Of a DNA stretch of 64,000 nucleotides, positions 13,949 to 55,091 are shown one piece after another (within the stretch, counting starts at the first letter, position 1; each line of letters opens with the position of its first letter). The position numbers and the translations under genes are program-made. Under the pieces are notes generated by a model, which had not been told where the DNA came from, did not search any database, and saw only the letters and a list, made by a program, of their open reading frames with translations. Source of the stretch: Methylobacter sp. (GTDB lineage: Bacteria > Pseudomonadota > Gammaproteobacteria > Methylococcales > Methylomonadaceae); assembly GCA_026399025.1 (NCBI GenBank), contig JAPLRU010000066.1:9999-73998 (forward strand), given 5' to 3'.

Positions 13949-15519
13949 TAGAAACCTTGCTCATCATTGAAGATGAAAAACTGCTAGGCTCCGAATTGTC
14001 GCGTCATTACCGGCAATCCGGTTGGGAAGTGGTGCTGGCGACCCGTCTGAGTGAGGCCAAGGATTTGTTGCTGAATAAAAAATTGGAACCGTTACTGATT
14101 CTTTCGGATATGAATTTACCGGATGGTAACGCGCTGGACTTCATGGAGAAAATCAAAAAAAACAGTAATTCCGCCGACGCTGCCGGAGATGGCGGAGGTA
14201 GAGCATTGCCGGGAGCACTTGCCGACGACTCCAGGGATGGCGGAGGTAGAGCATTGCCGGGAGCATTTGCCGACGACGCCAGGGATGGCGGAGGTAGAGC
14301 ATTGCCGGGAGCATTTGCCGACGACTCCAGGGATGGAGGAGGTAGAGCGTTGCCGGGAGCATTCGCCGAGTGGCTGTTTTTAACCGGCTACGGCAGTGTG
14401 CCGGATTCGGTCCGGGCATTACGGCTGGGCGCTTATGATTTCCTGGAAAAACCTTGCGATTTGGAACGCCTTGATCTGGTCGTCGCCAGCGCCGCGCGCA
14501 GTGCGTCAATCCAGCGCCGCGTCGTCGATCAAACCAAGCACCGGCATCGGCGTTATTCGCCGGATGCTTACGTCGGCCATAGCCGGCAGGCGCAGAGCAT
14601 ACGGCAGCTTTTGGCTAAACTGAACCAAGTGCCGTTCAGCGCGCTGATTATCGGCGGCGAGAGCGGCACCGGCAAAGGCCTTGCCGCGCGCATCTTGCAT
14701 TACGGCGGCTCCCGCGCCCAGCAGCCGATGATTGAAGTGAACTGCGCGGCTTTACCCAGAGAATTGCTGGAATCGGAATTATTCGGTCATGAGCCCGGCG
14801 CCTTTACCGGAGCCGCGGGACGCCATCGCGGCCTGCTCGAACAGGCCGACGGCGGCACCTTGTTCATGGACGAAATCGGTGAAATGCCGTTGGATTTGCA
14901 GGCCAAATTGCTCAAAGTCATTGAAGACCACAAAGTCCGGCGCTTGGGCGGAGAAAAGGAAATCCAGGTCGATGTGCAAATCGTTGCGGCCAGCAACCGC
15001 GATCTGGAAAAAATGGCGCTGGACGGCAGCTTTCGCGCCGATTTATACCATCGATTAAGCGTGTTCAAACTGATCTTGCCGCCGCTACGCGAGGCGGTAG
15101 AGGACCTGGACGAATTGGTGCCGCTGTTTGTCGCTGAATACAACGCCAAAGCCGGACGGCAGGTCAAAGACATCCCCAATGCGGTGTGGGACAAACTGAA
15201 AGCGCACTATTGGCCGGGCAATGTCCGGGAATTGCGTAACGTCATTGAGCGTTGCGTATTATTCGCCGACGGGCCGACCTTCCCCGGACAATGGCTGCAA
15301 TTGCCCGGCCAGCCTTCGGCAGAAGCCTTGCAAACCGAGCAGGGCATTTGGTTGCCGTTGGACGGCAGCATGGCATTGGACGATATGGATTGCTTTATTA
15401 TCAAAACCGCTCTGGAGCGGGCGGATAACAATCTGACCGCCGCCGCCAGAGCGCTGGGCGCTACGCGGGAAACATTACGTTATCGGGTGCGGAAATATAA
15501 CTTGAAAACAGCCGATTGA
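13945..15519 (+). CDS. NtrC-family sigma-54-dependent response regulator with a repeat insert
   Basis: A 524-residue regulator. The receiver has the acidic cluster IIEDEK, the phospho-acceptor Asp in LILSDMNLPDG, the conserved Thr in LTGYG and the Lys in LEKPCD. Between helix 3 and strand 4 it carries about 65 extra residues made of a 16-residue repeat (DGGGRALPGAFADDSR). The AAA+ domain has Walker A GGESGTGKGLAARIL, the sigma-54 contact motif GAFTGA and Walker B GTLFMDEIGEMP. The C-terminus is a Fis-type helix-turn-helix (NLTAAARALGATRETLRYR). It should act with the adjacent kinase on sigma-54 promoters. Whether the receiver still folds around the insert is open. Confidence 0.9.
   Translation: MIETLLIIEDEKLLGSELSRHYRQSGWEVVLATRLSEAKDLLLNKKLEPLLILSDMNLPDGNALDFMEKIKKNSNSADAAGDGGGRALPGALADDSRDGGGRALPGAFADDARDGGGRALPGAFADDSRDGGGRALPGAFAEWLFLTGYGSVPDSVRALRLGAYDFLEKPCDLERLDLVVASAARSASIQRRVVDQTKHRHRRYSPDAYVGHSRQAQSIRQLLAKLNQVPFSALIIGGESGTGKGLAARILHYGGSRAQQPMIEVNCAALPRELLESELFGHEPGAFTGAAGRHRGLLEQADGGTLFMDEIGEMPLDLQAKLLKVIEDHKVRRLGGEKEIQVDVQIVAASNRDLEKMALDGSFRADLYHRLSVFKLILPPLREAVEDLDELVPLFVAEYNAKAGRQVKDIPNAVWDKLKAHYWPGNVRELRNVIERCVLFADGPTFPGQWLQLPGQPSAEALQTEQGIWLPLDGSMALDDMDCFIIKTALERADNNLTAAARALGATRETLRYRVRKYNLKTAD
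14188..14370 (+). repeat. 48-nt in-frame tandem repeat inside the receiver domain
   Basis: Four tandem units start at 14188, 14236, 14284 and 14332; the last is incomplete, giving about 3.8 copies. A partial unit tail is also recognisable from about 14173. Each unit is 48 nt, adding 16 residues without a frameshift. Units differ at a few bases only, which points to recent expansion. The array is open in more than one frame and on the other strand. Confidence 0.9.
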
Positions 15520-40207: not shown

Positions 40208-40596
40208 GGGGGCGACATGGCTTCGACGTGGGTAGCAAAACCTTAAGTGCATGCCGAGGACAGTACACCTCGTAAAATCTACTGAAACTAAAGTATTCGC
40301 AAATGACGAAAACTACTCAATGGCTCTAGCTGCTTAAAACCAGCACCATTCCTTTGACCATCTGTGCTTATGCGGGTGGAGTCTTAAGTACTTCGGTATG
40401 AGGGACGCTCAGAGGTCATCTACATAAGATCGCGCTGAAATCTGTCCGGTGTGGATGCGCTAAAACCTTACGGAATCGCTGGTGATTTTCTTGGCCCGAC
40501 GGGTAGTCACTAGCTAAATCAAAAGAGCGGGATAAGCATGTAGACCTTGTGGCGGAGTACTTGCGGACGCGGGTTCAATCCCCGCCGCCTCCACCA
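40208..40596 (+). ncRNA. ssrA: Transfer-messenger RNA (tmRNA)
   Basis: The 5' end GGGGGCGACATGGCTTCGACG and the tRNA-like 3' end GGTTCAATCCCCGCCGCCTCC followed by encoded ACCA are unmistakable. The tag frame runs 40299-40337 and encodes ANDENYSMALAA then TAA, a 12-residue proteolysis tag with the usual ALAA ending. It rescues stalled ribosomes with SmpB (not in this window). The 3' end of ssrA is a frequent phage and island integration site, and accessory genes follow. Confidence 0.97.
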
Positions 40597-40945
40597 AATA
40601 AACTACTGAATTATAAAAGAAATACAAGTTTATAATTTAGCAAGTGGCGATAAATTGGCGGTTTGTGATTTCATAAATCGCCGATTCTCTTCAATCAGCG
40701 CCAATTCAAAACAAATATTTAATCGATAAATACGCAGCACTCCTGCGGCATTAGCTATAAATTCCAGTAGCAACCTAAATTACAATTACATTTTTTCATG
40801 CAAAAAACGCGCGGGTGAGGAGGAGTGCCCGAGGCCTCGTTGGATGAGGTTTGGCGGAATGGCTGAGTATTGGGTTGGACACAAAAAAGCCGGGGCTTGC
40901 CCGGCTTTTTTGTGGGTGACGGATTGGCGCCCGGATGGGGACGGG
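40597..40945. other. Island left junction, no gene seen
   Basis: About 350 bp after ssrA. No integrase gene is present. The only structure supported is the terminator at 40883-40911 belonging to the minus-strand operon. Confidence 0.5.
40883..40911 (-). terminator. Terminator of the antirepressor operon
   Basis: AAAAAAGCCGGG-GCTTG-CCCGGCTTTTTT is a symmetrical hairpin with T-runs on both strands, 35 bp past the stop of the 49-aa gene. Confidence 0.85.
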
Positions 40946-41095
40946 TTAGTTCAGGGTTGCGGCCACATCTTGGATAAGGATGTGGAGTAGACAGTAGATT
41001 TGGATTGGCGTGATGGTCTCTTGCTCTACTGTGGCGCTGATGCCTTGGGCGGCTCCGTTTAAGGCGTGGATGAGTTGTTCTTGTTGTTCTGTCAT
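40946..41095 (-). CDS. Small phage-type ORF, 49 aa
   Basis: MTEQQEQLIHALNGAA... ending QDVAATLN, preceded by GGGAGCG and followed by a strong terminator. It starts 13 bp after the antirepressor gene and is the last gene of that operon. It is hydrophilic and helical. No family is recognised. Confidence 0.6.
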   Translation of the reverse strand: MTEQQEQLIHALNGAAQGISATVEQETITPIQIYCLLHILIQDVAATLN

Positions 41096-41108
41096 CGCCC
41101 GCTCCCTG

Positions 41109-41654
41109 TTAGTTTGTGTTAGGGGTGTCGAACAGGTCGACTTGGTCGTGGTTCAGTGCTATCCATTCCGTTGGCGGGATGGGCTGGTTTACTCTGTTGC
41201 AGAGTCGGCGCAACCGGTCTTGTAGTAATTTTCTTCTGAAAGCATTGGAATTATTTACGATTTGTAAGGATATGCTTTCAAGCTGCTTTGATACACTGAT
41301 TTGGTCTTTGATGCTGATGGCGCCGAAGAAGCCGGTCTTGCGGATCTCGGGCAGCACGGTTTCGGAAACCCAATTGGCGAAGGCTTTGGCTTTGGGTTTA
41401 TTGGAGCGAAAGATCAGGTGATAAAGACCCGCTTCGTTGATGGAATGGGCGTTTTTTTCGTCTTTTATAGCGATGAGCTTTGTCGCCGTAAACCGGTTTT
41501 CCGGCATGTTATCGAGAGTATGACTTGACCATGTAATGTCGAGTGCAGTGCAAACATCTTTAGCGCAGAACCCGATTTTGCTGTGTTCATCGGTGGCGGT
41601 GCGGATGTCCAGCTCGGCGAACCGGAACGGATTGGCTAAGGTTTTTAAATCCAT
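41109..41654 (-). CDS. BRO-N domain antirepressor-like protein
   Basis: A 181-residue protein with an N-terminal BRO-N domain: FRFAELDIRT, IGFCAKDVCTALDI, then SINEAGLYHLIFRSNKPKAKAF and FANWVSETVLPEIRKTGFFG. The C-terminal helical part includes FRRKLLQDRLRRLCN. BRO-N proteins in phages act as antirepressors or DNA-binding regulators. GGGAGG precedes the ATG. The stop of the previous broken frame lies 1 bp upstream. Its place behind a C4-like RNA and an Icd-like ORF matches the ant gene of P1/P7 immI regions. Confidence 0.85.
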   Translation of the reverse strand: MDLKTLANPFRFAELDIRTATDEHSKIGFCAKDVCTALDITWSSHTLDNMPENRFTATKLIAIKDEKNAHSINEAGLYHLIFRSNKPKAKAFANWVSETVLPEIRKTGFFGAISIKDQISVSKQLESISLQIVNNSNAFRRKLLQDRLRRLCNRVNQPIPPTEWIALNHDQVDLFDTPNTN

Positions 41655-41655
41655 G

Positions 41656-41799
41656 TTACACCTCCCGAGTTAAAGCCGGTGGCAACAGCTGGGCACACAA
41701 CACACACTTAATGTGTTGATAGCGGATTTGAAACAGACGGGTAGGGATTTGGTAGCGTAGCGGCGCATTGGCGACTAGCTAGGTTAGTAGCTTGTTCAT
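41656..41799 (-). pseudogene. Small ORF interrupted by an in-frame TAG
   Basis: ATG 41799, with GGAG 7 bp upstream, opens M-N-K-L-L-T, then meets TAG at codon 7 (41779-41781). After it the frame stays open for 40 more codons (LVANAPLRYQIPTRLFQ... IKCVLCAQLLPPALTREV), with a CxxC. It ends TAA exactly 1 bp before the antirepressor ATG. The fit to both neighbours suggests a real gene with a nonsense mutation, or a read-through or leader-peptide design. Confidence 0.5.
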
Positions 41800-41802
41800 G
41801 GG

Positions 41803-41988
41803 TTACTCCTCTGTGATTAAAGAGACCGCCACTGAAGTGCGAAAATCGGGTGGCGGACTGACCTGGGTTCGCACTACCGCCACCGAGAGCGGCCCGCCCG
41901 AAGGCGGCCCAAGCCAGCCCACCATAATGATGACGTTACCGAAACGGATCTCGGGAACACAAAAACGATAGGCAAAAAAATAGCGCAT
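41803..41988 (-). CDS. Icd/Ash-like small ORF of an immI-type module
   Basis: A 61-codon frame whose middle reads GNVIIMVGWLGPPSGGPLSV, similar in pattern to Icd-like/Ash proteins of P1- and P4-type phages (MVGW-G-x-P-x-S followed by a VRTTT-like region). The nominal ATG at 41988 lies in the 3' arm of the C4-like terminator hairpin; an internal ATG at 41925 is an alternative start. Icd inhibits cell division in P1. Identification rests on weak similarity and strong context. Confidence 0.5.
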   Translation of the reverse strand: MRYFFAYRFCVPEIRFGNVIIMVGWLGPPSGGPLSVAVVRTQVSPPPDFRTSVAVSLITEE

Positions 41989-42060
41989 TCGATGCGCTGG
42001 TATCTTGGTAATTAAGCGGGGTGCAAATCCCGACTCTCGTTTTTTGCGAGAGCGTGATTA
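41974..42060 (-). ncRNA. C4-like antisense RNA (candidate)
   Basis: On the minus strand the order is a CTCTCG/CGAGAG hairpin, the single-stranded stretch GTCGGGATTTGCACCCC and a terminator-like hairpin AGCGCATTCGATGCGCT (read in either sense), with TATTTTTTT after it. This matches the architecture of C4 antisense RNA of P1/P4-type elements upstream of icd-ant. GGATTTGCAC can pair with GTGCGAACC in the following Icd-like region (about 41865-41875), as C4 does with its target. Confidence 0.55.
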
Positions 42061-42103
42061 GGTCAGTTCTTAATTTTTTATTTGTCAAGCGAGGTGTGTG
42101 AAA

Positions 42104-43306
42104 ATGAAGGGGAGCATAAATAAAAGGGCAGTTATTTTGTTTGGCGCAGGTGCCTCGATAGAATATAACGCACCATCCACCAGTGGGCTGACTGACGTTA
42201 TAGAACAGAAAGTGATGGCTGATGAGTGGATGAAGTCGTCCGGAGGAGATAAGGCCTTCTCTAAGATCAAGGATGGTCTGAAAAATTACCTTAAGCATCC
42301 CGGTATAGTCCAGTTTGAGCAGATTTACCACTGCGTCCATGAGTTGATTTATTCATTTGAACCGACATCAGGTGCGTTCGATGAGTTTCGCCCTTTGCTT
42401 TATCCCTTTTTTACCAATAACACCGGCCTTGATGAGTGTTCCTTACGATCACTGGCAAAGAAAATGGTGGAAGTGATCTTTGCCGAAGTTTCTGCCTGTT
42501 GTAATGGAAGTCCAATTAGCTTGGACCCTCTCACAAGTTTTATCAAAACATTACAGGATCAATACATCACACGCATCTACACGACAAATTATGATGACTT
42601 TCCTCTACAAGCCGTTGCCGATATGTACACTGGCTTTGATTCAACACTGAAGCCTGGCTCTAAACGATTCGATGTCGATCAGTTTTGGAACAAGGAAGAT
42701 TTAAACTCTATCTTTCATTTGCACGGCTCAGTCCATATGGGATTTCCACACCCAATTCCGCCTGAAGGAGATATAGGTGAGTTGTACTGGTTCGATGATC
42801 GAGCTGAAGCACTGCAACACTGTTCATTTTCAGGCTCCGACATCCGGCGCATGGACGGTAGTTCTTACCTACGTACCGCAGTTATCACTGGGCTAGATAA
42901 ACTTTCCCGCATCCAACAACGTCCATTATCGCATTTCTATTCGGCAATGGCGCGAGACATAATGCAAGCGGATGTCATCTTCGTTATCGGTTCAGGCTTG
43001 GGTGACCTGCATTTGAACACATGGCTAAAAGAATCGCGGCTACGCAAACCTGCTACACCGCTATTATTTGTCGACTGGTGGGAAGATGGTTTCTTAGAGA
43101 CTGTGGAGTTCGATTTTGATCGCAAAGAAATCGAGATGCTTCATGCGCTTAGAATTCTGATTGGCTCCCATTATCCTAGCATCAAATACGGTTCGGGCTG
43201 GACAGTATCAAATGATCAATCAGCGGCGGTGTGGGACAAGGGATTTCAGAGTTTTCTAAACACTCCTGCTGAACTTCAGGATGTCATGAAACAACTTAAG
43301 CTGTAA
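42104..43306 (+). CDS. SIR2-like domain protein (putative anti-phage NADase)
   Basis: A 400-residue protein of the SIR2_2-like superfamily. The NAD-binding N-terminus is AVILFGAGASIEYNAPSTSG; RIYTTNYDDFPLQ holds the Asn and Asp of the active site and IFHLHGSVHMG the catalytic His. A later VIFVIGSGLGDLHLNTWL completes the fold. In bacterial defence systems such domains deplete NAD+ on infection. ATG 42104 is preferred to GTG 42098 because GAGGT is then 8 bp away. It is divergent from the C4-like RNA. No other known defence partner (helicase, HerA, STAND) is adjacent. Confidence 0.8.
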   Translation: MKGSINKRAVILFGAGASIEYNAPSTSGLTDVIEQKVMADEWMKSSGGDKAFSKIKDGLKNYLKHPGIVQFEQIYHCVHELIYSFEPTSGAFDEFRPLLYPFFTNNTGLDECSLRSLAKKMVEVIFAEVSACCNGSPISLDPLTSFIKTLQDQYITRIYTTNYDDFPLQAVADMYTGFDSTLKPGSKRFDVDQFWNKEDLNSIFHLHGSVHMGFPHPIPPEGDIGELYWFDDRAEALQHCSFSGSDIRRMDGSSYLRTAVITGLDKLSRIQQRPLSHFYSAMARDIMQADVIFVIGSGLGDLHLNTWLKESRLRKPATPLLFVDWWEDGFLETVEFDFDRKEIEMLHALRILIGSHYPSIKYGSGWTVSNDQSAAVWDKGFQSFLNTPAELQDVMKQLKL

Positions 43307-43331
43307 GGTGGATTCGCCGCAAGGCAATCCG
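43299..43331. repeat. Island hairpin repeat, copy 1
   Basis: AAGCTGTAAGGTGGATTCGC... with GGTGGATT/AATCCGCC pairing. It begins inside the last codons and stop of the SIR2-like gene. Copy 2 is at 44487-44519 and a weaker one at 45205-45240. Confidence 0.7.
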
Positions 43332-43546
43332 CCCCGACCTCGGTCGGCTGTAGCGCGGTAGGCTGGGTAGAGCATCGCGAAACCCAGATTTGATGCTAAT
43401 AAGGCGCACCGACATGACAGATGCGCCTCATTCGTCGTCAGTAACCTATTGCGCATCGTATCGTGGTCGATAGCCGAATCGCCCATAAGCCAGCGTAGAT
43501 CAGCCGTATAGAATTGTATATTTTTTCAAATATAAGGATGTCCAAA

Positions 43547-44299
43547 ATGTCATATGTTCTTTTTAAGATGTGGCAACCATTTAGAGAACATCTAATTGCC
43601 CGCCATAATTTTTTTATGGAGCAGGCTCAAAAACGGTTACTCTCACAATTTATGAATATAGGGGCTGAAGCCGATGAGTATGGTAATAACTGGCTGAATG
43701 AGCAAGGCCATTACTTTGATCCTGACAGGCATGATCCCGATAGCTTCCTTGAACAGGCATATGATGAAAGCATGGGGTTTTATTCATTGCTTGCTGATAT
43801 GCAAACTAATACCCGCCTAAGTGTAGTAGCAGGCATGTTTCATGAGTGGGATAAACAATTAAGAGATTGGACTCTAAGAGAAATAAACCATTGGCACCAT
43901 GGTGATGCCGTCAAAAAGACCGTTTGGAAAGCTAACTTTTCTGAGATCATTGAATTATTTGAAAGCTTTGGCTGGCCAATAAAACAAAAAAATTATTATA
44001 AAGCTATCGATAAATGTAGATTGGTGGTCAATGTTTACAAACATGGATCTGGCAATGCCTTTGATTCTATTAAGCGAGAATATCCTGAGTTCATAAGTCT
44101 TTATGCAGATCTCGATCCTCTTTTTTTAGAAATGGCTAGCTATACTGATTTGAAAATTGAAGATAATCATATACTCGAGTTTTCAAATGCAATCGTAGAA
44201 TTCTGGAATGATGTGCCGGAGACTATCTGCAATAAGGATACATATGATTTGCCGGCATTGTTTGTGAAAGCGTTTGAAAAAGACCGGCGTGGGCTGTAG
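43547..44299 (+). CDS. Unrecognised island protein, 250 aa, HEPN-like motif
   Basis: A soluble, helical, aromatic-rich protein. The segment CRLVVNVYKHGSGNAFDSIK resembles the N-x-x-K-H-G element of some HEPN or Abi-type RNases. No catalytic assignment is safe. The start at 43547 (MSYVLFKMWQ) is chosen because AAGGA lies 8 bp upstream; the longer frame from 43514 lacks a site. Higher A/T and different codon use from the core genes point to transfer. Position after the SIR2-like gene suggests a defence or companion role. Confidence 0.65.
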   Translation: MSYVLFKMWQPFREHLIARHNFFMEQAQKRLLSQFMNIGAEADEYGNNWLNEQGHYFDPDRHDPDSFLEQAYDESMGFYSLLADMQTNTRLSVVAGMFHEWDKQLRDWTLREINHWHHGDAVKKTVWKANFSEIIELFESFGWPIKQKNYYKAIDKCRLVVNVYKHGSGNAFDSIKREYPEFISLYADLDPLFLEMASYTDLKIEDNHILEFSNAIVEFWNDVPETICNKDTYDLPALFVKAFEKDRRGL

Positions 44300-44426
44300 G
44301 TTAGTATCGTCGGGCAATGCTTTTCTGCCCGACATTACCGCCTTTTTCAATATTTTCCGATTTAACATGCCGGAAGGCACCGTGATCGGGCAATCCTATT
44401 CTACCTGACATTATCGTGCATCAAAT

Positions 44427-44461
44427 GTCGGGCACGAACGGCATGTGCCCGACCTTTTTTT
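44427..44461 (+). terminator. Rho-independent terminator
   Basis: GTCGGGCAC...GTGCCCGAC is a perfect 9-bp stem followed by CTTTTTTT, 130 bp after the 250-aa gene. Confidence 0.85.
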
Positions 44462-44486
44462 GTACTCATTGCTGTGTTTTATGTGA

Positions 44487-44519
44487 ATAAAGCTGTAAGG
44501 CGGATTCGCCGCTAGGTAA
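44487..44519. repeat. Island hairpin repeat, copy 2
   Basis: AAGCTGTAAGGCGGATTCGC... matches copy 1 at 43299 over 33 bases with four differences. Confidence 0.7.
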
Positions 44520-44595
44520 TCCTCCACACTGCGACAGACTGTCATCGGCATTGCGCATATGAGGCGGTTTGCTACGCGACACCGCTCTACGGGGC

Positions 44596-44624
44596 TTGAT
44601 GCACTAAATAATTGCATATACAAT
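44596..44624 (+). promoter_or_regulatory. brnTA promoter, apparently leaderless
   Basis: TTGATG (44596-44601) and TACAAT (44619-44624) are 17 bp apart. The brnT ATG at 44632 is only 7 bp after the -10 box, where transcription should begin, and no ribosome-binding site is present. Confidence 0.6.
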
Positions 44625-44631
44625 TATTTCC

Positions 44632-44931
44632 ATGAAAAAGAAACTCACCTGGGACGAAACCAAACGGCAAGCCAACCTGCAAAAGCATGGATTGGACTTT
44701 GCCGATGCAGGGGAAGTGCTCAACTCGCGTTATCGTTTGGATTTAATGGTCGAGAGAAATGGTGAACAGCGCTTCCAGTCTTTTTCGTATGTGATGAATC
44801 GGCTGGCGGTTTTATCCTTGGTTCATTTGGATCGCAACAATACGGTGCGGGTCGTCAGCTTTCGGCCTGCAAGCCAATTAGAATCGGAGATGTATTATGA
44901 GTGGCTCGAAAACAACGGCAATGAGTCGTGA
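44632..44931 (+). CDS. brnT: BrnT family toxin
   Basis: A 99-residue RelE-fold ribonuclease toxin. Family marks are the N-terminal LTWDETKRQANLQKHGLDFADAGEV (the W-x-x-x-K-x-x-x-N-x-x-K-H-G motif) and the late VRVVSFRPAS...YYEWL. It overlaps brnA by 35 bp. The product should cleave RNA and be blocked by BrnA, which with BrnT also represses the operon. Confidence 0.9.
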   Translation: MKKKLTWDETKRQANLQKHGLDFADAGEVLNSRYRLDLMVERNGEQRFQSFSYVMNRLAVLSLVHLDRNNTVRVVSFRPASQLESEMYYEWLENNGNES

Positions 44932-45202
44932 GCAAATTCTTGAATCGATGAAAACGCCCCCACCCGACGGTTATTACGTTTGGGACGGTGTTGATGAAGA
45001 TGATCGCCCAGCGACCGAGGAAGAATTACGCGCAGGTATTGCGTTAGCGCGAAGCCGTGGGCGTCCGGCCGGTTCGGATAAAACCCAGATTGCTTTGCGT
45101 GTTGACAACAGTGTGTTGGAGGCTTTTCGTGCCACGGGTAAGGGCTGGCAAACACGCATGAACGAGGCATTGAAAGAATGGCTTAAAGAACATGCTGCTT
45201 GA
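44897..45202 (+). CDS. brnA: BrnA family antitoxin
   Basis: A 101-residue antitoxin with the C-terminal ribbon-helix-helix-like DNA-binding part: KTQIALRVDNSVLEAFRATGKGWQTRMNEALKEWL. The start at 44897 is supported by GGAGAT about 5 bp upstream. It binds BrnT and represses transcription. Confidence 0.88.
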   Translation: MSGSKTTAMSREQILESMKTPPPDGYYVWDGVDEDDRPATEEELRAGIALARSRGRPAGSDKTQIALRVDNSVLEAFRATGKGWQTRMNEALKEWLKEHAA

Positions 45203-45258
45203 TTAACGCAGTAAGGAATTCGCCGGTAGGCAATATCCCCCCGGCAGGCTTACAAAAC

Positions 45259-45399
45259 TTAGCCACTAAATCCCGGCAATGCCATTTGATCGACACTTTG
45301 CCCGATTAACTCAAATTCAAGCATGGACTGTTGGGCGATATTACAGATACGGCGTAAGCGGTCCATCAATAACTGACGGCGAAAGGTGTTTTGGTATTG
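45259..45399 (-). pseudogene. Remnant of a second BRO/antirepressor gene
   Basis: A minus-strand frame QYQNTFRRQLLMDRLRRICN... ends PGFSG-stop (TAA 45259-45261). FRRQLLMDRLRRICN matches FRRKLLQDRLRRLCN at the C-terminus of the antirepressor at 41109. The N-terminal part is missing: upstream the sequence becomes a GATGCGCTTCGTACCTCAGC repeat. This is a truncated duplicate. Confidence 0.65.
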
Positions 45400-45452
45400 G
45401 CCAGCCCGTAGATGCGCTTCGTACCTCAGCGTATCCTACGGTCCTGTCATCG
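45400..45452. repeat. Small dispersed repeat truncating the antirepressor remnant
   Basis: CCGTAGATGCGCTTCGTACC...CGTATCCTACGG has 6-7-bp inverted ends and resembles a common gammaproteobacterial intergenic repeat. Confidence 0.4.
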
Positions 45453-45524
45453 GCGTTGGACTATTTGGAGGTTTCGCGTACCCCCCTACGGGATTACAAC
45501 TTTAATTCTTCTCCCCTCTTATCT

Positions 45525-45552
45525 TTGACAAGTCTTATATAATACTTATAAT
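45525..45552 (+). promoter_or_regulatory. relE/xre promoter, apparently leaderless
   Basis: Consensus TTGACA (45525-45530) and TATAAT (45547-45552) are 16 bp apart. The toxin ATG at 45560 is 7 bp after the -10 box, so the transcript should start at or next to it. A second TATAAT (45538-45543) lies inside the spacer. Confidence 0.7.
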
Positions 45553-45559
45553 TTGACTT

Positions 45560-45817
45560 ATGAACACGATCAGCTGGAAACCCAAAGCCCTTAAGCAGCT
45601 TGAAAAGATCAAGGAAATCGCCATACGTCAGCGGATTTATACCGAAGCGCAGGTATTGGCTGATTTTCCGAATTGCCAGGGCGTTAAAAAGCTGACTAAC
45701 CATGCCTACAGTTACCGCCTGCGGGTGGGGGATTTCCGGGTGTTTTTCGAGTTCGACGGCGACGTTCGTATTATTGACATTGAAGAGGTGAAAAAACGCG
45801 ATGAGCGCACTTACTAA
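45560..45817 (+). CDS. RelE/ParE-family toxin
   Basis: An 85-residue RelE-fold protein: ISWKPKALKQLEKI, then VKKLTNHAYSYRLRVGDFRVFFEFDGDVRIIDIEEVKKRDERTY, with the typical YRLRVGDFRV(F/I) strand. It overlaps the Xre gene by 17 bp. The product may cleave mRNA on the ribosome or, if ParE-like, poison gyrase; the sequence does not decide. Confidence 0.85.
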   Translation: MNTISWKPKALKQLEKIKEIAIRQRIYTEAQVLADFPNCQGVKKLTNHAYSYRLRVGDFRVFFEFDGDVRIIDIEEVKKRDERTY

Positions 45818-46133
45818 CTACCAAACCATTCTAGGCGACGACGGCAAACCGGCGTTTGTAGTGCTGCCTTATGCCGATTTCATTAAACTGCCCGGCGTTG
45901 TCCGCCCCGGCATGATTCCGAACGCTGTCGTCGGTAAGCGCGTCATGGATGGGGTCAGTATGCTGCAAGCTTGGCGTGAATATTTGATGCTGACTCAAAC
46001 CGACATGGCGGAACGGATGGGCATTAGCCAAGCCGGTTACGCGCAGATTGAGGCCGCCAAGCGTCCACGCAAAGCCACACTGCAAAAAGCCGCCGATGCT
46101 TTGGGTATTACGCTGGAGCAGTTGGCCTATTAG
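45801..46133 (+). CDS. Xre-type antitoxin
   Basis: A 110-residue protein. The N-terminal half resembles a Phd/DUF-type region (FVVLPYADFIKLPGV). The C-terminal half is a helix-turn-helix (AWREYLMLTQTDMAERMGISQAGYAQIEAAKRPRKATLQKAADALGI). It neutralises the upstream toxin and represses the operon. Confidence 0.85.
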   Translation: MSALTNYQTILGDDGKPAFVVLPYADFIKLPGVVRPGMIPNAVVGKRVMDGVSMLQAWREYLMLTQTDMAERMGISQAGYAQIEAAKRPRKATLQKAADALGITLEQLAY

Positions 46134-46491: not shown

Positions 46492-49400
46492 TTACAACAC
46501 AAAATCCGTAGCGACCAAATTACTCACTCCGGCCAACTGGATAGAGAAATCCGCGGCATTATCCGCATCGTTGTTGCCATAAAGAATTTGCGCGGTTTTG
46601 TCGAAATAGAGTTCGCCCGAATTGGCGAATACGCCCGAAAAAGTGCCGCCTACGGTGGGCGCTGAAAAAGCATTATTACCGGTAAATGCGGTGTTCGCAT
46701 CAATCGCGGATAAATTGATTTTATCGCCTTGGCTGTGGCTAAAATCAACGATGCTGTCTCGAGTGCCGGCGCTGACGCCGGTTTCGGTTTCGCTGTTAAA
46801 CTTGAATTGGTCGCTGCCTAAGCCTCCGGTCAGGGTGTCGGCCCCGGTTCCGCCGGTTAAAGCATTAGCGCCTTTATTGCCGGTTAAGGCATTATTAAGC
46901 GAGTTGCCGATGCCGTTAATCGCCGCCGTTCCGCTGAGGGTCAAATTTTCTATATTAGTCTTCAGTGTGTAAGTGGTTGAGCTGTTAACGGTATCGATTT
47001 CGATTGCCAAGGCGGAGGTTTCAGTGACTACGTCGCCGGCTTTATCGACAAAGTAAGTGTCGTTACCCAAACCGCCTATCATGGTATCGTTGCCCGCACC
47101 GCCGGAAAGGGTGTCATTGCCTGTAAAGCCGTCCAGCACATTATTGCCGGCGTCGCCGGTCAAGACGTCGCCGGCTTGCCCGCCGATCACATTTTCGATG
47201 CTGTTAAGCTGGTCGCTGTCGATTTCATTGCCGCCGGCGGTACCCAATGCCAAGCTGACTGTAATACCGGTCGTCGCGCTGGAGTATTTAATGGTGTCGA
47301 TACCGGCGCCGCCGATATAGATGTCGTCGCCAATGCCGTTACCGCCGACAATAAGATCGTTGCCGATACCGCCATTGACGGAGTCGTTGCCGTTGCCGCC
47401 TTCCAACGAGTCGCTGCCGTTACCGCCGACCAGGGTGTCGTTATCCAAACCGCCTAATAATTCGTCATTGCCCGAACCGCCGAATAATGAGTCCCGGCCT
47501 ACCGCACCGTCTAAAACGTTATTGCCGTCATTACCGCTTAAGGCGTTATCGCTATCGTTCCCGGTAAGGTTACTGGCTTTTGCGCCTGCGGCAATGGTGC
47601 CATTTTCAATACTTGCCGGTAAGGTGTAGCTTTGTAACAGATACGGCATGATGACGGTATCTTGGTCCGTCGCTAAGCCGTTATCGGCGATAACATCAAT
47701 GGCATCGTAACCTAAATAATAGATATCGTTACCTTCACCACCCGTCATGAAATCAGCGCCCTTGTCGCCACCATCCAAGGTATCGTTACCTGCACCGCCC
47801 TCCATGCTGTCTACGCCCTTGCCTCCATCTAAGCTATCGTTACCTTCTCCACCCATCAGGGTGTCCAGGCCGTCACCTCCATCTAAGGTATCGTTACCTA
47901 CCCCGCCATCCAAATAATCATTTTCTTGCTCTCCATATAAATCGTCATTGCCTTCTTCACCGAACAGGTTATCGTCGCCATTGCCACCCAAAAGCGTATC
48001 GTTGCCCCGGCCGCCCGATAAATTATCCGCCATATTTAAACCATGCAAAATATCCGCGCCGTTACCGCCGATAAGAACATCGGATGTCGCAATGTCGCCG
48101 CCTTGATCGCCGTATAAATCCAGTGGACTGTCTAAACCATCATCGGTATTGGTTAAACTTAATGGAGTGACAGTGACATTTTTATAAAAAACATCCCTTG
48201 AACTGATGGTTGCGGTGATTTCATAAGGGATATTGCCGTCATCCAAATAATCGTCCACCCCGCTTACCGTTAACGTTTGCGGCGTAGAATAATTCGCCGA
48301 GGTAAAGGTAAATGTGGTCTTGCCGGTAACAATGCCTTCGCTGGCATCATTACTGGCAAAAGTCACGACGACGTTTTGATTAACCGCCGGAGCGGTGTTC
48401 AGCTGAACTTTGTAAGTGACGCTTGCGCCATTTTCACCGGTAGTTTGCGCGGTCGCGGGACTGATGGTGACGCCGGGGGTGGACGGAGGAATGACGACTC
48501 CGGAACTTGCGCTGCTAACGCTTTCAGCCGTACCGAAAGCATCGGTGTAGGTCGCTGTGGCGGTGACGGTTTTGCCTATCTCATTGGCGGTTAAGGTGTA
48601 AGTGTTGCCGGTGCCGATAGTGACAGCGCCCGCTCGCCATTGATAAGTGATAAGCCCTAAGCCATCGGTATCGGCCAAGGTATTGGATGCGGTTAACACT
48701 TCGCCTTTTTTTGCAGTGCCGGCAATGGTGACTTTGCCGGTAGGCAAGTCATTGACGTTAAGTACTGCCGCCGTTGCCGTACTGGCGGCGTGTTCAACCG
48801 TGCCTAACTTATCGGTATAGTGAGCGGCTACCGAAATGGTTTTGCCGACTTCAGTCTGGGTCAGGGTATAAGTTTTGGCGGTTGCGCCGGTAATAGCCAC
48901 TCCGTTTGCTTGCCATTGATAAGCGATCGTCCCTAAACCATCGGTATCCGCCAGGGTATTGCCGACAGTCAGTTTTTGTCCTTGAGCCGCGGTGCCGGTA
49001 ATGCTGACTGTTCCTGTCGGGGCGTCGTTAGTGGCTATTCCGGTAAAGTTTTTGCTGCCGGATACGCTTAAGGTGTCATCGCTGATATCGGTGGCGATGG
49101 TAAAGCTGCTGTTAAAATTAGCTGCCGGGGTAAAGCTTAAGCCCGCCAATAAAGTATTAACGTCCGCGACCGCGCCGTTGGCTGTCCACACGCCGGTACC
49201 GGCGTTGTAGCTTGACGTCACCGCGTTCGATGTGCCTGTACTTAAGCTGCCTGCCGCGAGGTTGGATAAGGTCAAGGTTGCTGAAATAACAGGACTGTCT
49301 ATATCGTTGGCGACAATGTTAGTCAGGTTTAAGGCTGTATCTTCGGTATACGTTTCGGCGCTATTCAGAGCTGTCGCGGTCGGTGCGTCATTGGCGGCGA

Positions 49401-51582
49401 TTCCGGTAAAGTTTTTACTGCCCGATACGCTTAACACGCCGTCGCCGATGGTGGTGGAGATGGTAAAGCTGCTGTTGAAATTGGCCGTTGGGGTAAAACT
49501 TAGGTTTGCTAATAAGGCATTAACATCCGCAGACGCGCCGCTGACAGTCCATACGCCCGCACCTGCGCTGTTGTAAGTGGACGTCGCGGTATTTGATGTG
49601 CCGGTGTTTAAGCTGCCTGCCGCCGGGTTGGATAATGTTAAGGTTGCGGTAATAGTGGCGCTGTCTACGTCGGTGGCGACAAGATCGGTTAAGTTTAAGG
49701 CTTCATCTTCGGTATAGGTTTCAGCGCTATTAAGGGCTGTCGCGGTCGGAGCGTCAGCGACGGCGGTTCCGGTAAAGCTTTTGCTGCCCGATACGATTAG
49801 GGAGCCATCGCTGATCTGGGTAGCGATGGTAAAGCCGCTGTTAAAGTTAGCCGCCGGGGTAAAGCTTAAGCCTGCCAATAAAACATTAACGTCCGCCGTC
49901 GCACCGGCAGCAGTCCATACGCCGGTGCCGGCGTTGTAGCTTGACGTCACTGCATTTGAGCTGCCGGTGCTTAAGCGGCCCGCGACCGGGTTGGATAGGG
50001 TCAAGGTAGCTGTGATGGTGGCGCTGTCGACATCGGCGGCGACAAGATCGGTTAAGTTTAAGGCTGTATCTTCGGTATAGCTTTCGGTGCTATTGAGAGC
50101 GGTAGCGGTCGGTGCGCTATTGACTGGCGTTCCGGTAAAACTTTTGCTGCCCGATACGCTTAACGAGCCGTCGCTGATGTTGTCGGCAATGGTAAAGTTA
50201 CCGTTGAAATTAGTGGTTGGAGTAAAGACCAAATTCGCCAATAAAGCATTAACATCGGCACTGGCGCCGCTGACCGACCATACGCCGGTGCCTGCGTAGT
50301 AGCTTGAAGTTACGGAATTTGAGGTGTCGGTATTTAAGCTGCCGGCAGTCGGGTTGGATAAGGTTAAGGTTGCTGTAATGGTAGCACTGTCCGCATCGGT
50401 GGCGACAATATCGGTTAAATTCAAGGGGGCGTTTTCGGTATAGGCTTCGGCAGCACTGAGAGACGTGGCCGTGGGCGCGTCATTGACGGCGCTTCCGGTA
50501 AAGGTTTTGCTGCCCGATACGTTTAACAAGCCATCGCTGATACTGGTGGCGATGGTGAAGCCGTTGTTAAAGTTGGCCGCTGGGCTAAAGCTTAAACCCG
50601 CCAATAAAATATTAACATCCGCGGTTGCGCCGGTAGCTGTCCATATGCCGGTGTCCGGGCTATAAGCCGATGTCACTGAGTTTGCCGTACCGATGTTTAA
50701 GCTTCCCGCCGCCGGGTTCGATAAGGTTAGCGTCGCCGTTAAGGTAGCATTGTCACTATCGGCGGCGACGATGTCCGTTAAATTTATGGCGCTATCTTCG
50801 GTATAGGTTTCGGCGGTATTAAGAGCCGTCGCGGTGGGGGCGTCATTAACGGCGGTTCCTGCAAAGCTTTTGCTGTCCGATACGGTTGAAAAGCTGTCGC
50901 TGATGCTGGTGGCAAGGGTGAAGCTGCTATTGAAATTAGTTGCCGGGGTAAAAATTAAGCCCGCCAACAAAGTATTAACATCTGCGATTGCGCCGTCGGC
51001 TGTCCATACACCGGCGCTGTAAGTTGAAGTGACTGAGTTTGATGTGCCGGTGTTTAAACTGCCCGCCGCGGTGTCGGATAAGGTCAGGGTTGCGGTGACG
51101 CTGGCGCTGTCGGTATCGGTGACGACAATATCGGTTAAGTTTAAGGCCGTATCTTCGGTATAGGTTTCGGCAGCATTAAGATTAGTGGCGGTCGGTGCGC
51201 TATTGATGCTGCTAATTTCGATAATGCCTAGCGGGGCGGAGCCTTGTGGCGAATTGGGCACATCGTTCCATTTTCCATTATTGGTCGTTAACATCACGTA
51301 ATCTTCATTACCGTTGCGATTGTCCGGCTGGATAGTATCCCAATTAGTGAAAGTTGAGGATTCCCCATTAACCCACTTAAAAACGCCTTCCGTTTCCTGG
51401 TCTGTATAACCCAGCCATAGCGCTGGATTATTGCCAAAAGTGGCGATTAGCCAATCTTGTTCCGCTTGATTGTTAATAGTAACTAAGTTTCCCCCCAAGC
51501 TCTGCGCACTGGCTTGCGCTTCCTGCCATGTGCCGGCGGTGGTTAATAAATAAGTATGTCCGTTGTATTGATAAGTAGCCAT
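46492..51582 (-). CDS. Giant lectin/Ig-like/RTX adhesin
   Basis: A 1696-residue secreted protein. Residues 1-128 are a C-type lectin domain (GHTYLLTTAGTWQEAQASAQ, DNRNGNEDYVMLTTNNGKWND). Six about-121-residue Ig/cadherin-like repeats follow (each opening with a DAPTAT...ETYTED motif). Then two about-90-residue repeats (DTDGLG-x-Y-Q-W), a Calx-beta-like unit and about 15 RTX nonapeptides (GGxGxDxL) with a DSIVDFSHSQGDKINLSAID-type type I secretion terminus. Ca2+ should fold the RTX part outside. No type I transporter is in the window. It lies 86 bp behind the TpsA-like gene. Confidence 0.9.
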   Translation of the reverse strand: MATYQYNGHTYLLTTAGTWQEAQASAQSLGGNLVTINNQAEQDWLIATFGNNPALWLGYTDQETEGVFKWVNGESSTFTNWDTIQPDNRNGNEDYVMLTTNNGKWNDVPNSPQGSAPLGIIEISSINSAPTATNLNAAETYTEDTALNLTDIVVTDTDSASVTATLTLSDTAAGSLNTGTSNSVTSTYSAGVWTADGAIADVNTLLAGLIFTPATNFNSSFTLATSISDSFSTVSDSKSFAGTAVNDAPTATALNTAETYTEDSAINLTDIVAADSDNATLTATLTLSNPAAGSLNIGTANSVTSAYSPDTGIWTATGATADVNILLAGLSFSPAANFNNGFTIATSISDGLLNVSGSKTFTGSAVNDAPTATSLSAAEAYTENAPLNLTDIVATDADSATITATLTLSNPTAGSLNTDTSNSVTSSYYAGTGVWSVSGASADVNALLANLVFTPTTNFNGNFTIADNISDGSLSVSGSKSFTGTPVNSAPTATALNSTESYTEDTALNLTDLVAADVDSATITATLTLSNPVAGRLSTGSSNAVTSSYNAGTGVWTAAGATADVNVLLAGLSFTPAANFNSGFTIATQISDGSLIVSGSKSFTGTAVADAPTATALNSAETYTEDEALNLTDLVATDVDSATITATLTLSNPAAGSLNTGTSNTATSTYNSAGAGVWTVSGASADVNALLANLSFTPTANFNSSFTISTTIGDGVLSVSGSKNFTGIAANDAPTATALNSAETYTEDTALNLTNIVANDIDSPVISATLTLSNLAAGSLSTGTSNAVTSSYNAGTGVWTANGAVADVNTLLAGLSFTPAANFNSSFTIATDISDDTLSVSGSKNFTGIATNDAPTGTVSITGTAAQGQKLTVGNTLADTDGLGTIAYQWQANGVAITGATAKTYTLTQTEVGKTISVAAHYTDKLGTVEHAASTATAAVLNVNDLPTGKVTIAGTAKKGEVLTASNTLADTDGLGLITYQWRAGAVTIGTGNTYTLTANEIGKTVTATATYTDAFGTAESVSSASSGVVIPPSTPGVTISPATAQTTGENGASVTYKVQLNTAPAVNQNVVVTFASNDASEGIVTGKTTFTFTSANYSTPQTLTVSGVDDYLDDGNIPYEITATISSRDVFYKNVTVTPLSLTNTDDGLDSPLDLYGDQGGDIATSDVLIGGNGADILHGLNMADNLSGGRGNDTLLGGNGDDNLFGEEGNDDLYGEQENDYLDGGVGNDTLDGGDGLDTLMGGEGNDSLDGGKGVDSMEGGAGNDTLDGGDKGADFMTGGEGNDIYYLGYDAIDVIADNGLATDQDTVIMPYLLQSYTLPASIENGTIAAGAKASNLTGNDSDNALSGNDGNNVLDGAVGRDSLFGGSGNDELLGGLDNDTLVGGNGSDSLEGGNGNDSVNGGIGNDLIVGGNGIGDDIYIGGAGIDTIKYSSATTGITVSLALGTAGGNEIDSDQLNSIENVIGGQAGDVLTGDAGNNVLDGFTGNDTLSGGAGNDTMIGGLGNDTYFVDKAGDVVTETSALAIEIDTVNSSTTYTLKTNIENLTLSGTAAINGIGNSLNNALTGNKGANALTGGTGADTLTGGLGSDQFKFNSETETGVSAGTRDSIVDFSHSQGDKINLSAIDANTAFTGNNAFSAPTVGGTFSGVFANSGELYFDKTAQILYGNNDADNAADFSIQLAGVSNLVATDFVL

Positions 51583-51668
51583 CGCTTAGTCTCAAATGAA
51601 AAATGGTTATTGTAATGGGTTATGTCGGCTTGCTAAGCCGTATCTTGAACCCATCTGGAAGCGCCAAC

Positions 51669-54600
51669 TCAGAACGGCAATTGATCGCCGCTTTTCGGTT
51701 TCAAGCCGCCGGCTCCTTTACGGGTAAGGGAACTGCCGGTGCCTAATCCGCAATAGTCTTGGCTGATAATCTGGGTGTCGAATTGGGGGCCGCCCAAGTT
51801 GGCAATAATACCACTCAGGTTCAATTGCGGTGCGGTTACGCTCAGGGTGCCGCTGACGCCCGCTTGCGAGGCGGCCTGGATGACGTTAAAGCCGGACATG
51901 AACGCTTGCCAATTGACCGGCGCGCCGCCCAGAATCAGCATATTACAGCTGGGAATCAGCGCGTTCAGGTTCAGTGCGATATTGCCGCCGGAGCCGCCGA
52001 CCGCGTTGGCTTGGATGATGCCGCTATCCATCAGCAACATGTCGGCGCTTATCGCTATGTCGCCTCCGTTACTGTCGGCGCCGCCTACTGTGGTCATAAA
52101 ACCGGCGTTTTTCAGGAAGATCAATTCTCCGCCGCTGATGGTTATCATGCCGCCGTTGCCGGTATTCGCCGTGGTACGGATAAAGGACGGGTCCATGGTT
52201 AGCCAATGGGAGAAGTTAATATAAACATTTCCCGCGCTCACGTTACCGGTCGAATGGGTGCTGATAACACTATCCTTCATATCAATGTCTTGAGCACTGA
52301 CGGTAATAGCGCCGGGCCTAACCGTCGGTTCGACAGCATTGCCGGCATTCTCGATGCTGATTTTGGCGTTATTGGATAAACTCAGCAAAGACGCGGCTCG
52401 AACGGTCACATCGCCGGTGCGCCCGGTCGAACCGGCCTTGGCTTCGGCGGAAATGACCGAGTTAGCCACGCTGACGCTTGGCGCTTCTATGGTTACACTG
52501 CCGGCGCTGCCGGTACCGGAGGCGGAAGAGTTGATGGTAGACGCATTTTGTTCCGACAGGGATTGCATCGCCGTGACTTTCACCGAGCCCGCATCGACAT
52601 TGCCGACGGTAGCGGCTGTGATAGTGCCGCCGTCCAATGCTAGGGTTGCGGCCGAAACTGTCAAGCTGCCGGGTCTAAGCGTTGCCGGGTCAATGGCCGT
52701 GCCGGCATTTTCGATGCTGATTTTGCCGCCGTTGGCGAGTTGGACAGCGTTCGCAGCTTGGACCGCAACGTTGCCGACTTGGCCGCCGCTGCCGGGTTTC
52801 GCTTCCGAGAAAATCCCGGTCGCCACGGTTGTATTGCCTTGTCCATCGACAATTAAAGTCTCTGCATTAACGGTAACGCTACCGGCATCGCCTTCGGCGA
52901 AAGTGGAACTCGACACATTGCCGCCGTTGACGATATCGACAGTTTTAGCCTGAACCTTCACGTCACCGGCGCGGCCGCTGCTGCCTTGATTGGCGCGAGA
53001 GACAATGCCGGTGGCCGTCAACAGGTTGCCTTGACTATCGATCTTTAACGCATCCGCCGTCACCGTAACGTTGCCGGCATTGCCTTCGGCAAAAGTGGAA
53101 CTCGAAATCACCCCGCCGTTGAGAATATCGAGCGCTCCAGCCTGAATGGTCACATTACCGGCATGGCCGCTGCCCAGATTCGCTTGCGAATTAATGCCGG
53201 TCGCCCTTGTTTTATTGCCCAGTCCGTTAATGGTTAAAGTGTTCGCGATGACTTCAACATTGCCGGCATTGCCTTGGGCAAAAGTGGAACTCGACACATT
53301 GCCGCCGTTGACGATGTCGACGCTTTGAGCGCGAATGCCGACGTTCCCGGCTTGACCGCTACTGCCTTGATTCGCACGCGAGTATATGCCGGTTGCCGTT
53401 GACGCATTGTCTTGGCTGTTGACGGTCAATGCATCCGCCGTGATGTCAACATTGCCGGCGTCGCCTTGAGCGGACGTGAAGCTCGACACGACGCCGCCAT
53501 TGAGGATGTTGAGGATGGCGGCCCGGATATTGACGTTACCGGCGTTACCTAGCGCATCGGTCGAACTGGAAATATCCCCGGCATTGGCAACGTCCAGCTT
53601 TCCGGTTTGAACGCTCACATTACCGGCTTGGCCGCTGCTGTTCGCTTCCGCTTTCGAGAAAATACCGGTTGCACCTGCCGAATAGTCTTGGCTATCGACG
53701 CTTAAGGTATCGGCCGCGACGGTCACGTTACCGGCGTGGCCTTGACTGAAAGTCGAGCTGGAAATACGTCCGCCGTTTAGAACATCCAGCTTGCCGGCCT
53801 TGACTGTCACATTGCCGCCGAGGCCGCTACTGCCCGGATTCGCGCGCGAGACAATGCCAGTTGCGGATCTCTCGTAGCCTTGGCTATCGATGGTTAACTT
53901 ATCCGCGGTGACGGTAACATCGCCCGAGTAGCCTTGGGCATAAGTGGAACTGGAGATATTGCCTCCATTTAGAATATCCAGCGTTCCGGCTTTCAGGATT
54001 ACATTACCGGCATTGCCGAAACTAAAGGCGGAACTCTTGATATGCCCGTTGTTATCGATAGTCATCGCAGCGGTGCTTGTCAACGTCACATTTCCGGCCT
54101 TACCGGAGTCCAAGGCATCGAACGAAATCCAGCCGTTATCCACTTTTAGCGTGTATGCGCGCATATCGACGCCTTTTGCCGCCGTGGCATCGGTAGCGCC
54201 GCTATTGTCGTTATATGACGTACTGTTAGTGAGCGAAATATCGCCTCCCCACAGCGCGATGCGGCCGCCGCCGTCGCCGGTGCCGTCAATGGCGCCGGCG
54301 TTAATGGTGATGGGGCCTGCATTCGTCGCCGAGGGGAGGGCAGTCGGCAAAGGCAGCGTGCCGTCCGCGGATTTTTCCAAACTTGTTGAGCCTTGTCCCT
54401 GTATGGCGACCAAACGTAAGTCTCCGGCGGGGGCGGCGACGAGCGACAGGTTTTCAATGGTAATTGCACCCGCCACCATATCGAATGTTCGACCGGTCTT
54501 TACGCTCAGTTGGGCGTTGTTGACGTCAATTAGCCCATTGTTGGCTGTGGAGGTGCCGAGAAAGCCGAAAGCCGCCGGCGCTTCGGCGGACAAGGTGCTG

Positions 54601-55091
54601 GTTTGATTCGAGTCGGCGTAAAAGCTTCCGCCATGATTGGCGAAATCGATTTTATCCGCCGTGCTGATGTGGAAAGCGCCGGGAACATTTACCTGAGCGC
54701 CTGTTCCGAAAGTAATGCCATTAGGATTGATGAAGTAAAAAGCGGCGTTGGCGATAGCGGATCTTAGCGTTCCTTCGATTTCCGTTACATCGGTGCCGGT
54801 TACGCGGGAGACCACATTGTGCAAGGCATCGCTGCCGGTGAATCTGACTGTTTGGCCATTCGCTATGTTGAATTCGGTAAAACTATGGAACAGATTATTG
54901 CCGACGGTGGTGCCCAGACTTTGCGGCACGGTGAGGTTGGCGCCGTTCAAGGTCTGAGTCGCGCCCATCGTGCCGTCAGTGCTGATACCGCCGCTGACGT
55001 CCGCCCAAGCGCTAGGAGCGAGGGCTAGCGCTTCGATCAGGAAATAGCCGAAAGCGCGTAGCCAAGACAATGTTTGCGATCTGTTGCTCAT
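51669..55091 (-). CDS. TpsA-like filamentous hemagglutinin (TPS domain) exoprotein
   Basis: A 1140-residue protein with a signal-like start and an N-terminal TPS/haemagglutination-activity domain: NLFHSFTEFNIANGQTVRFTG, VSRVTGTDVTEIEGTL, FYFINPNGITFGTGAQVNVPG. The rest is a right-handed beta-helix of about 75-residue repeats (a VTVTADxLxI-DSQG-xx-ATGIxS unit and an NVxVQAxxLDIxNGGxISSST unit). Such proteins are exported by a TpsB porin, which is not nearby. An adhesion or matrix role is likely. Confidence 0.9.
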   Translation of the reverse strand: MSNRSQTLSWLRAFGYFLIEALALAPSAWADVSGGISTDGTMGATQTLNGANLTVPQSLGTTVGNNLFHSFTEFNIANGQTVRFTGSDALHNVVSRVTGTDVTEIEGTLRSAIANAAFYFINPNGITFGTGAQVNVPGAFHISTADKIDFANHGGSFYADSNQTSTLSAEAPAAFGFLGTSTANNGLIDVNNAQLSVKTGRTFDMVAGAITIENLSLVAAPAGDLRLVAIQGQGSTSLEKSADGTLPLPTALPSATNAGPITINAGAIDGTGDGGGRIALWGGDISLTNSTSYNDNSGATDATAAKGVDMRAYTLKVDNGWISFDALDSGKAGNVTLTSTAAMTIDNNGHIKSSAFSFGNAGNVILKAGTLDILNGGNISSSTYAQGYSGDVTVTADKLTIDSQGYERSATGIVSRANPGSSGLGGNVTVKAGKLDVLNGGRISSSTFSQGHAGNVTVAADTLSVDSQDYSAGATGIFSKAEANSSGQAGNVSVQTGKLDVANAGDISSSTDALGNAGNVNIRAAILNILNGGVVSSFTSAQGDAGNVDITADALTVNSQDNASTATGIYSRANQGSSGQAGNVGIRAQSVDIVNGGNVSSSTFAQGNAGNVEVIANTLTINGLGNKTRATGINSQANLGSGHAGNVTIQAGALDILNGGVISSSTFAEGNAGNVTVTADALKIDSQGNLLTATGIVSRANQGSSGRAGDVKVQAKTVDIVNGGNVSSSTFAEGDAGSVTVNAETLIVDGQGNTTVATGIFSEAKPGSGGQVGNVAVQAANAVQLANGGKISIENAGTAIDPATLRPGSLTVSAATLALDGGTITAATVGNVDAGSVKVTAMQSLSEQNASTINSSASGTGSAGSVTIEAPSVSVANSVISAEAKAGSTGRTGDVTVRAASLLSLSNNAKISIENAGNAVEPTVRPGAITVSAQDIDMKDSVISTHSTGNVSAGNVYINFSHWLTMDPSFIRTTANTGNGGMITISGGELIFLKNAGFMTTVGGADSNGGDIAISADMLLMDSGIIQANAVGGSGGNIALNLNALIPSCNMLILGGAPVNWQAFMSGFNVIQAASQAGVSGTLSVTAPQLNLSGIIANLGGPQFDTQIISQDYCGLGTGSSLTRKGAGGLKPKSGDQLPF

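Follow-up and report, generated by a model that had tools for sequence, protein, structure and literature searches.

The segment adjoining the 3' end of ssrA in the genome of Methylobacter sp. is very probably the end of a decaying prophage carrying an immunity module of the P1/P7 immI type, composed of an IsrK-type (a1b1) RNA, a C4 antisense RNA, a leader ORF, a Bro-N antirepressor gene and a small gene designated orf49. The window—the whole stretch of 64,000 nucleotides analysed here—contains the tmRNA gene at 40208-40596 on the plus strand (ARAGORN and Rfam), at which the former prophage was probably attached, and the module itself is located on the minus strand. The initial annotation had placed the locus next to ssrA in a methanotroph, a label that fits, since the genome exhibits two AMO/pmoA-family matches. 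In the immI system of P1 and P7, the C4 RNA is processed by RNase P and represses ant, the product of which antagonises a C1-type repressor. By analogy with P1 and Gifsy-1, a single promoter would drive isrK, C4, the leader and ant in a working copy; the C4 RNA would pair with the sites a2 and b2 over the leader ribosome site, halting the translation of the leader and thereby of the coupled ant, so that the prophage repressor would stay active. The short terminated IsrK, bearing the same C4-binding sites a1 and b1, would either titrate C4 or remodel the transcript, and ant would then be made. This regulation, the former prophage and the loss of switching in the window copy are what we infer.

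Concerning the two RNAs, the search of the 64-kb window with the Rfam covariance models located C4 at 41929-41846 of the minus strand (RF01695, 74.7 bits, gathering cut-off 45, E 9.6e-13) and isrK at 42053-41976 of the same strand (RF01394, 50.2 bits, barely over the cut-off of 50, E 8.5e-8), each of them being the single match of its model in the genome. No match to c4-a1b1 (RF03163) up to E 1 was obtained upstream of C4 in 40600-42400. The structured RNA with a T-run, regarded previously as C4-like, was thus recovered, its identity being that of IsrK; the region 41960-42070 (minus strand), put forward for a search with RF01695, yielded no match and is excluded as C4, the model matching about 30 nt further downstream. 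Judged from the sequence, the RNA at 41976-42053 is accordingly of the IsrK type and the true C4 is the one predicted at 41846-41929.

All the elements of the module can be followed along the minus strand. A -35-like TTGACA is kept at 42083-42088, 35 nt before isrK, with a -10 region that departs from those of the relatives; the hexamer is absent from the list of the simple pattern scan, which in 40700-42400 revealed no excess of promoter-like sites (1 vs 1.8 in shuffles) or of terminator-like sites (3 vs 2.6 in shuffles). The second hairpin of isrK carries a1 (42021-42027), where GGATTTGCAC could form 7 pairs, one of them G.U, with GTGCGAACC, i.e. with the C4 linker or a' site (41868-41874, from the pairing scan); it is this complementarity between the RNA and the ORF downstream of it that was noticed at the outset. 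A b1-like stretch (42003-42009) has one mismatch to the apical loop of C4 P3, the b' site (41882-41888, from the predicted fold and the alignment), and is followed by the isrK terminator-like stem (41998-41982, pattern scan). Directly past C4, the a2 site (41836-41843) is predicted to form 8 Watson-Crick pairs with the C4 linker. The leader Shine-Dalgarno sequence (41806-41812) represents the expected b2 region; pairing of the P3 loop there is below the norm and not supported, the longest Watson-Crick run with that loop being 4 and lying away from the expected leader ribosome site.

The leader ORF occupies the position of icd (41656-41799), starting 46 nt past the end of C4. It corresponds to the small broken frame of the initial annotation, which is real: a stop is present at codon 7 (41781-41779). 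The homologous leader of L172, a viral contig, has an uninterrupted frame of 46 residues; in G158, a genome of the same genus as the window, the frame stays open for the 44 residues compared, and in G110 it is frameshifted. With regard to Icd homology, neither Pfam nor PHROGs gave a match for the window leader read with X at the stop, and the leader peptides of seven relatives together with that of the window yielded nothing better than E 0.03 in both collections. The gene ant (41109-41654), recognized from the beginning as a BRO-N gene, follows on the same strand downstream of C4 and the leader in a predicted operon, as antirepressor genes do in P1/P7 immI; its open frame encodes a Bro-N antirepressor-like protein of 181 aa (PF02498, 61.1 bits; assigned as anti-repressor by PHROGs). 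The comparison of the 181 codons in three sequences, made without a tree, ascribed 11 synonymous and 17 nonsynonymous differences to the window alone vs 37 and 14 to L172 and G158 together (Fisher p 0.007), and two tryptophans common to L172 and G158 are replaced in the window; ant thus seems to have come under relaxed constraint. The 49-aa orf49 (40946-41095), also seen previously, has a counterpart kept in L172, and the terminator reported past it agrees with an inverted repeat flanked by A- and T-runs between the ant module and ssrA (40883-40911), seen by eye and absent from the pattern-scan list. The scan of genome contigs with the ant protein returned 22 pattern stretches with no relative confirmed. 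Elsewhere in the same genome as the window, a second ant copy, reduced to a fragment and interrupted by stops, is found at L186 (G000, contig C129, 12511-12943), where neither C4 nor isrK was detected up to E 0.05.

Phage P1 (AF234172), scanned with the same models, gave c4-a1b1 at 51.0 bits, isrK at 35.1 bits (below the cut-off) and C4 at 68.8 bits, in the same order as in the window. Its record annotates a1, b1, a2 and b2 as well as c4 (48343-48419) and icd (from 48470); the icd start is positioned 47 nt past the end of the Rfam C4, and the pairing scan recovers all four annotated sites a1, b1, a2 and b2. Since isrK and c4-a1b1 overlap in P1, isrK was taken as the a1b1 element plus terminator. 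The window thus resembles P1/P7 immI in the order, the spacing, the fold of C4 and the pairing of its linker with a2, but differs in having a stopped leader without detected Icd homology, a poor b2 pairing, an antirepressor assigned by Pfam as Bro-N only, and the state of an end remnant in a methanotroph. The immI design proposed in the initial annotation holds as to a P1-type C4 RNA plus an antirepressor at ssrA, whereas its parts had been misassigned and the supposed Icd/Ash homology was not found.

The second system to be compared, isrK-orf45-anrP of Salmonella Gifsy-1, is alike by its description in having a terminated IsrK and a short leader ORF coupled to an antirepressor. According to the available part of PMC4825925, the Gifsy-1 IsrK activates anrP via orf45 and is reported to open the mRNA; STnc1160 is not termed C4 in that part. 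The seqA-CI-seqC arrangement of P4 likewise has, as described, an antisense RNA between two copies of its own target, and the accessible text of PMC10111431 reports that the Rfam models C4 and isrK detect relatives of CI and seqA in Bro zones of satellites. In P4, however, replication genes are controlled by early termination. A satellite or phage immunity switch had been suggested for the locus; no P4-type satellite gene such as primase was seen among the nine ORFs scanned (40949-46130) or, by eye, in the rest of the window, and the evidence favours a decaying prophage end over a working switch. As for Acinetobacter baumannii, many chromosomal copies of C4-like group 1 sRNAs are expressed, as stated in the part of PMC5320573 at hand, vs one C4 match, known from its sequence, in the window genome. 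Both C4 and c4-a1b1 are listed in PMC2864571 and neighbouring C4 and isrK in Xylella are given in PMC12189769, as far as the available portions of these papers go. The occurrence of C4 outside enterobacteria is already known, from the papers on Acinetobacter and Xylella as well as from the genomes described below.

Two samples were used, i.e. 151 genomes of the host's family and 398 genomes drawn from the phylum. In the family, 76 of the 151 genomes contain C4, 72 of them with a score over the cut-off, and 68 contain isrK, the matches of which mostly stay below the Rfam cut-off (9 genomes over it); in the phylum sample, 62 of the 398 genomes contain C4 (60 over the cut-off) and 61 contain isrK (24 over the cut-off). 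Of the 113 isrK matches listed for the family, 102 are followed after 8-69 nt by a C4 on the same strand; conversely, an isrK precedes 102 of the 149 listed C4 matches at that distance. At least 30 of the 35 over-cut-off isrK of the phylum sample have a C4 within 200 nt downstream among the C4 matches listed. A Shine-Dalgarno sequence plus ATG 40-58 nt past C4 was seen in 84/101 tandems vs 2/101 shuffled (ATG alone in 97/101), and a TTGACA-like hexamer upstream of isrK in 96/100 tandems vs 13 shuffled, being placed 35 or 36 nt before isrK in 80 of those 96. The 132 downstream proteins produced few Pfam matches—Bro-N 9, Toprim_3 8 and KilA-N 7, with Phage_pRha 2, ORF6N 2, P22_AR_N 1 and AntA 1 being rarer. 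A literature search of partial coverage turned up no paper whose title or abstract deals with the isrK-C4 tandem on a large scale.

The complementarity within the tandems was expressed as the longest Watson-Crick run between segments delimited in the alignments by the column positions of the window row, for 101 unique tandems with their kinship ignored. A run of at least 6 between the isrK hairpin-2 loop and the C4 linker was found in 99/101 cognate tandems vs 7% of mismatched ones, and between the isrK spacer and the C4 P3 loop in 86/101 vs 9%; the first 0-55 nt downstream reached it with the C4 linker in 90/101 cognate tandems vs 12% and with the P3 loop in 85/101 vs 16%. One of the swapped-part controls gave 3% vs 4% and the other one a slight excess, 9% vs 4%. 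The longest cognate runs represent 45 loop types and 99 loop-plus-spacer combinations, both counts being inflated by the run ends because exact strings were compared. The isrK:C4 runs of the window are the lowest among the 101, i.e. 4 for a1 (7 with G.U) and 3 for b1 (5 with G.U), a position that depends on the counting of Watson-Crick runs, since the defect of a1 is one G.U. The duplexfold energy of the window pair is not weak (-52.3 vs a cognate mean of -48.6 kcal/mol). Such energies part cognate from other pairs overall; as they leave internal structure out of account and the window does not stand out by them, run lengths were used in their place. Based on the stopped leader, the codon differences of ant and isrK:C4 runs lower than in any other of the 101 tandems, the window copy reads as decaying, C4 apparently being its best kept part.

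It should be pointed out that the locus appears as a mosaic. The promoter and the first isrK hairpin (42100-42017) exhibit 83-85% identity to L077, L172 and G158 by blastn, and from the leader onward (from 41821 or later) the identities are 87.5% for L077, 75.9% for L172 and 73.7% for G158. The block between them, 42032-41812, reaching from isrK hairpin 2 to the leader Shine-Dalgarno sequence, resembles other relatives rather than this flank lineage, i.e. L127 (76.8%) and L085 (75.9% over the first 184 nt); L077, L172 and G158 have no blastn match above 38 bits to it. The simplest reading is that the whole specificity block would have been exchanged between lineages.

An att partner was sought without success, so the case for a prophage origin is based on the relatives. 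L172, the ant of which is 78% identical to that of the window, carries at one end isrK (39.3 bits), C4 (67.1 bits), an intact leader, ant, orf49 and tRNA-Ser, with a ligase-like ORF (named by eye) among the module genes, and at the opposite end an integrase match with a 23-nt repeat of the tRNA-Ser end beside it. In G158 the module (C4 58.0 bits, isrK 35.1 bits) adjoins ssrA itself, and methyltransferase-like and long tail-like ORFs, named by eye and phage-like, are situated beyond it. A partner of the ssrA 3' end was found neither in the window (exact 14-mers of 40541-40640) nor in the genome (25-mer, up to 3 mismatches). Neither integrase nor structural gene was detected by Pfam and PHROGs among the nine ORFs scanned, and none of the integrase matches listed for the genome (8 of 12) is on the window contig. 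The window holds the end segment alone, the next genes being a SIR2-domain ORF, a phrog_19541 protein and toxin-antitoxin pairs. The SIR2-domain ORF (42098-43306, plus strand; PADLOC matches SIR2 and Aga_SIR2) is divergent from isrK, the two starts lying about 45 nt apart, and is possibly a prophage-borne defence gene. The protein at 43514-44299 (plus strand) matches phrog_19541 at 2e-65, and 44632-46133 (plus strand) contains a BrnT/BrnA pair and a ParE-type toxin with an HTH protein; short segments at 43298-43399, 44489-44596 and 45444-45765 recur, like interspersed repeats, in the loci L185, L186 and L188. Elsewhere in the window, a 48-base tandem repeat (14173-14369, 4.1 copies, 93% matches) is in frame within a response-regulator-like ORF (13945-15519), and two very long repetitive ORFs of 1696 and 1140 aa (46492-55091, minus strand) have by eye a secreted or surface look.

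The preserved parts of the module—the promoter-like -35, the terminator, C4, a2, the Shine-Dalgarno sequence and the open ant—would also suit a live prophage or satellite whose switch is intact and regulated, and the open frame of ant counts against a remnant, because a dead remnant need not keep it; given the leader stop, the nine scanned ORFs without integrase or structural gene, the missing att partner and the lack of an integrase on the contig among the matches listed (8 of 12), such a switch is nevertheless highly improbable. Still harder to credit is the reading of the initial annotation itself, a gene for an Icd/Ash-like protein with a C4-like RNA upstream. The 61-aa ORF (41803-41988) exists and its start indeed falls within the terminator hairpin, that of isrK; it consists, however, mostly of the C4 RNA and has no family match in Pfam or PHROGs, where the proposed check against Ash/Icd profiles came to nothing, so that, as far as the sequence can tell, it is excluded as an Icd/Ash protein by the overlap with C4 together with the absent match.

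The remnant could, finally, still serve as a resident immunity element: its well-preserved C4 would be produced and would silence ant operons brought in by phages that share its a/b specificity, be it host-selected or by chance. In line with this, C4 of the window ranks fifth among the 149 matches listed in the host's family, the a2 pairing comprises 8 nt, and in some viral contigs the C4 linker of the window is accompanied by fitting a1 and a2 sites. A 15-mer taken around the linker has 26 exact matches in viral stretches, of which six (L194, L196, L197, L201, L207 and L208) are flanked as predicted, by a1 upstream and a2 downstream; as L194, L201, L207 and L208 are nearly identical, these amount to about three independent cases. 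L205 and L210 have an a1-like match alone and the other 18 have neither a1 nor a2, the 20 matches without the a1 and a2 pair being probably due to chance. On the other side stand the departing -10 region, the poor b2 pairing and the apparent decay of the leader and ant, and the high C4 score may just mirror a recent acquisition of the block. This role is considered unlikely, and the decaying prophage end is preferred.

A wider idea, likewise unlikely, is that the IsrK-C4 blocks would be exchangeable cassettes of immunity specificity, a1, b1, C4, a2 and b2 moving together from one phage lineage to another, as suggested by the block 42032-41812 of the window, and that a stranded C4 could be retained by the host as an immunity RNA addressed by its sequence. 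If true, the exchange of cassettes would account for a wealth of specificities within a single bacterial family, and such a C4 would act against phages of its own type after the loss of the prophage. On the family scale, isrK and C4 appear as one tandem whose pairing parts vary together, linking systems described apart—a1b1-c4 of P1, IsrK of Gifsy-1 and seqA-CI of P4—and the tandems may represent a natural collection of specificities for testing the orthogonality of antisense immunity. To these the window adds an RNA immunity module from a methanotroph, very probably of the P1 type and caught decaying.
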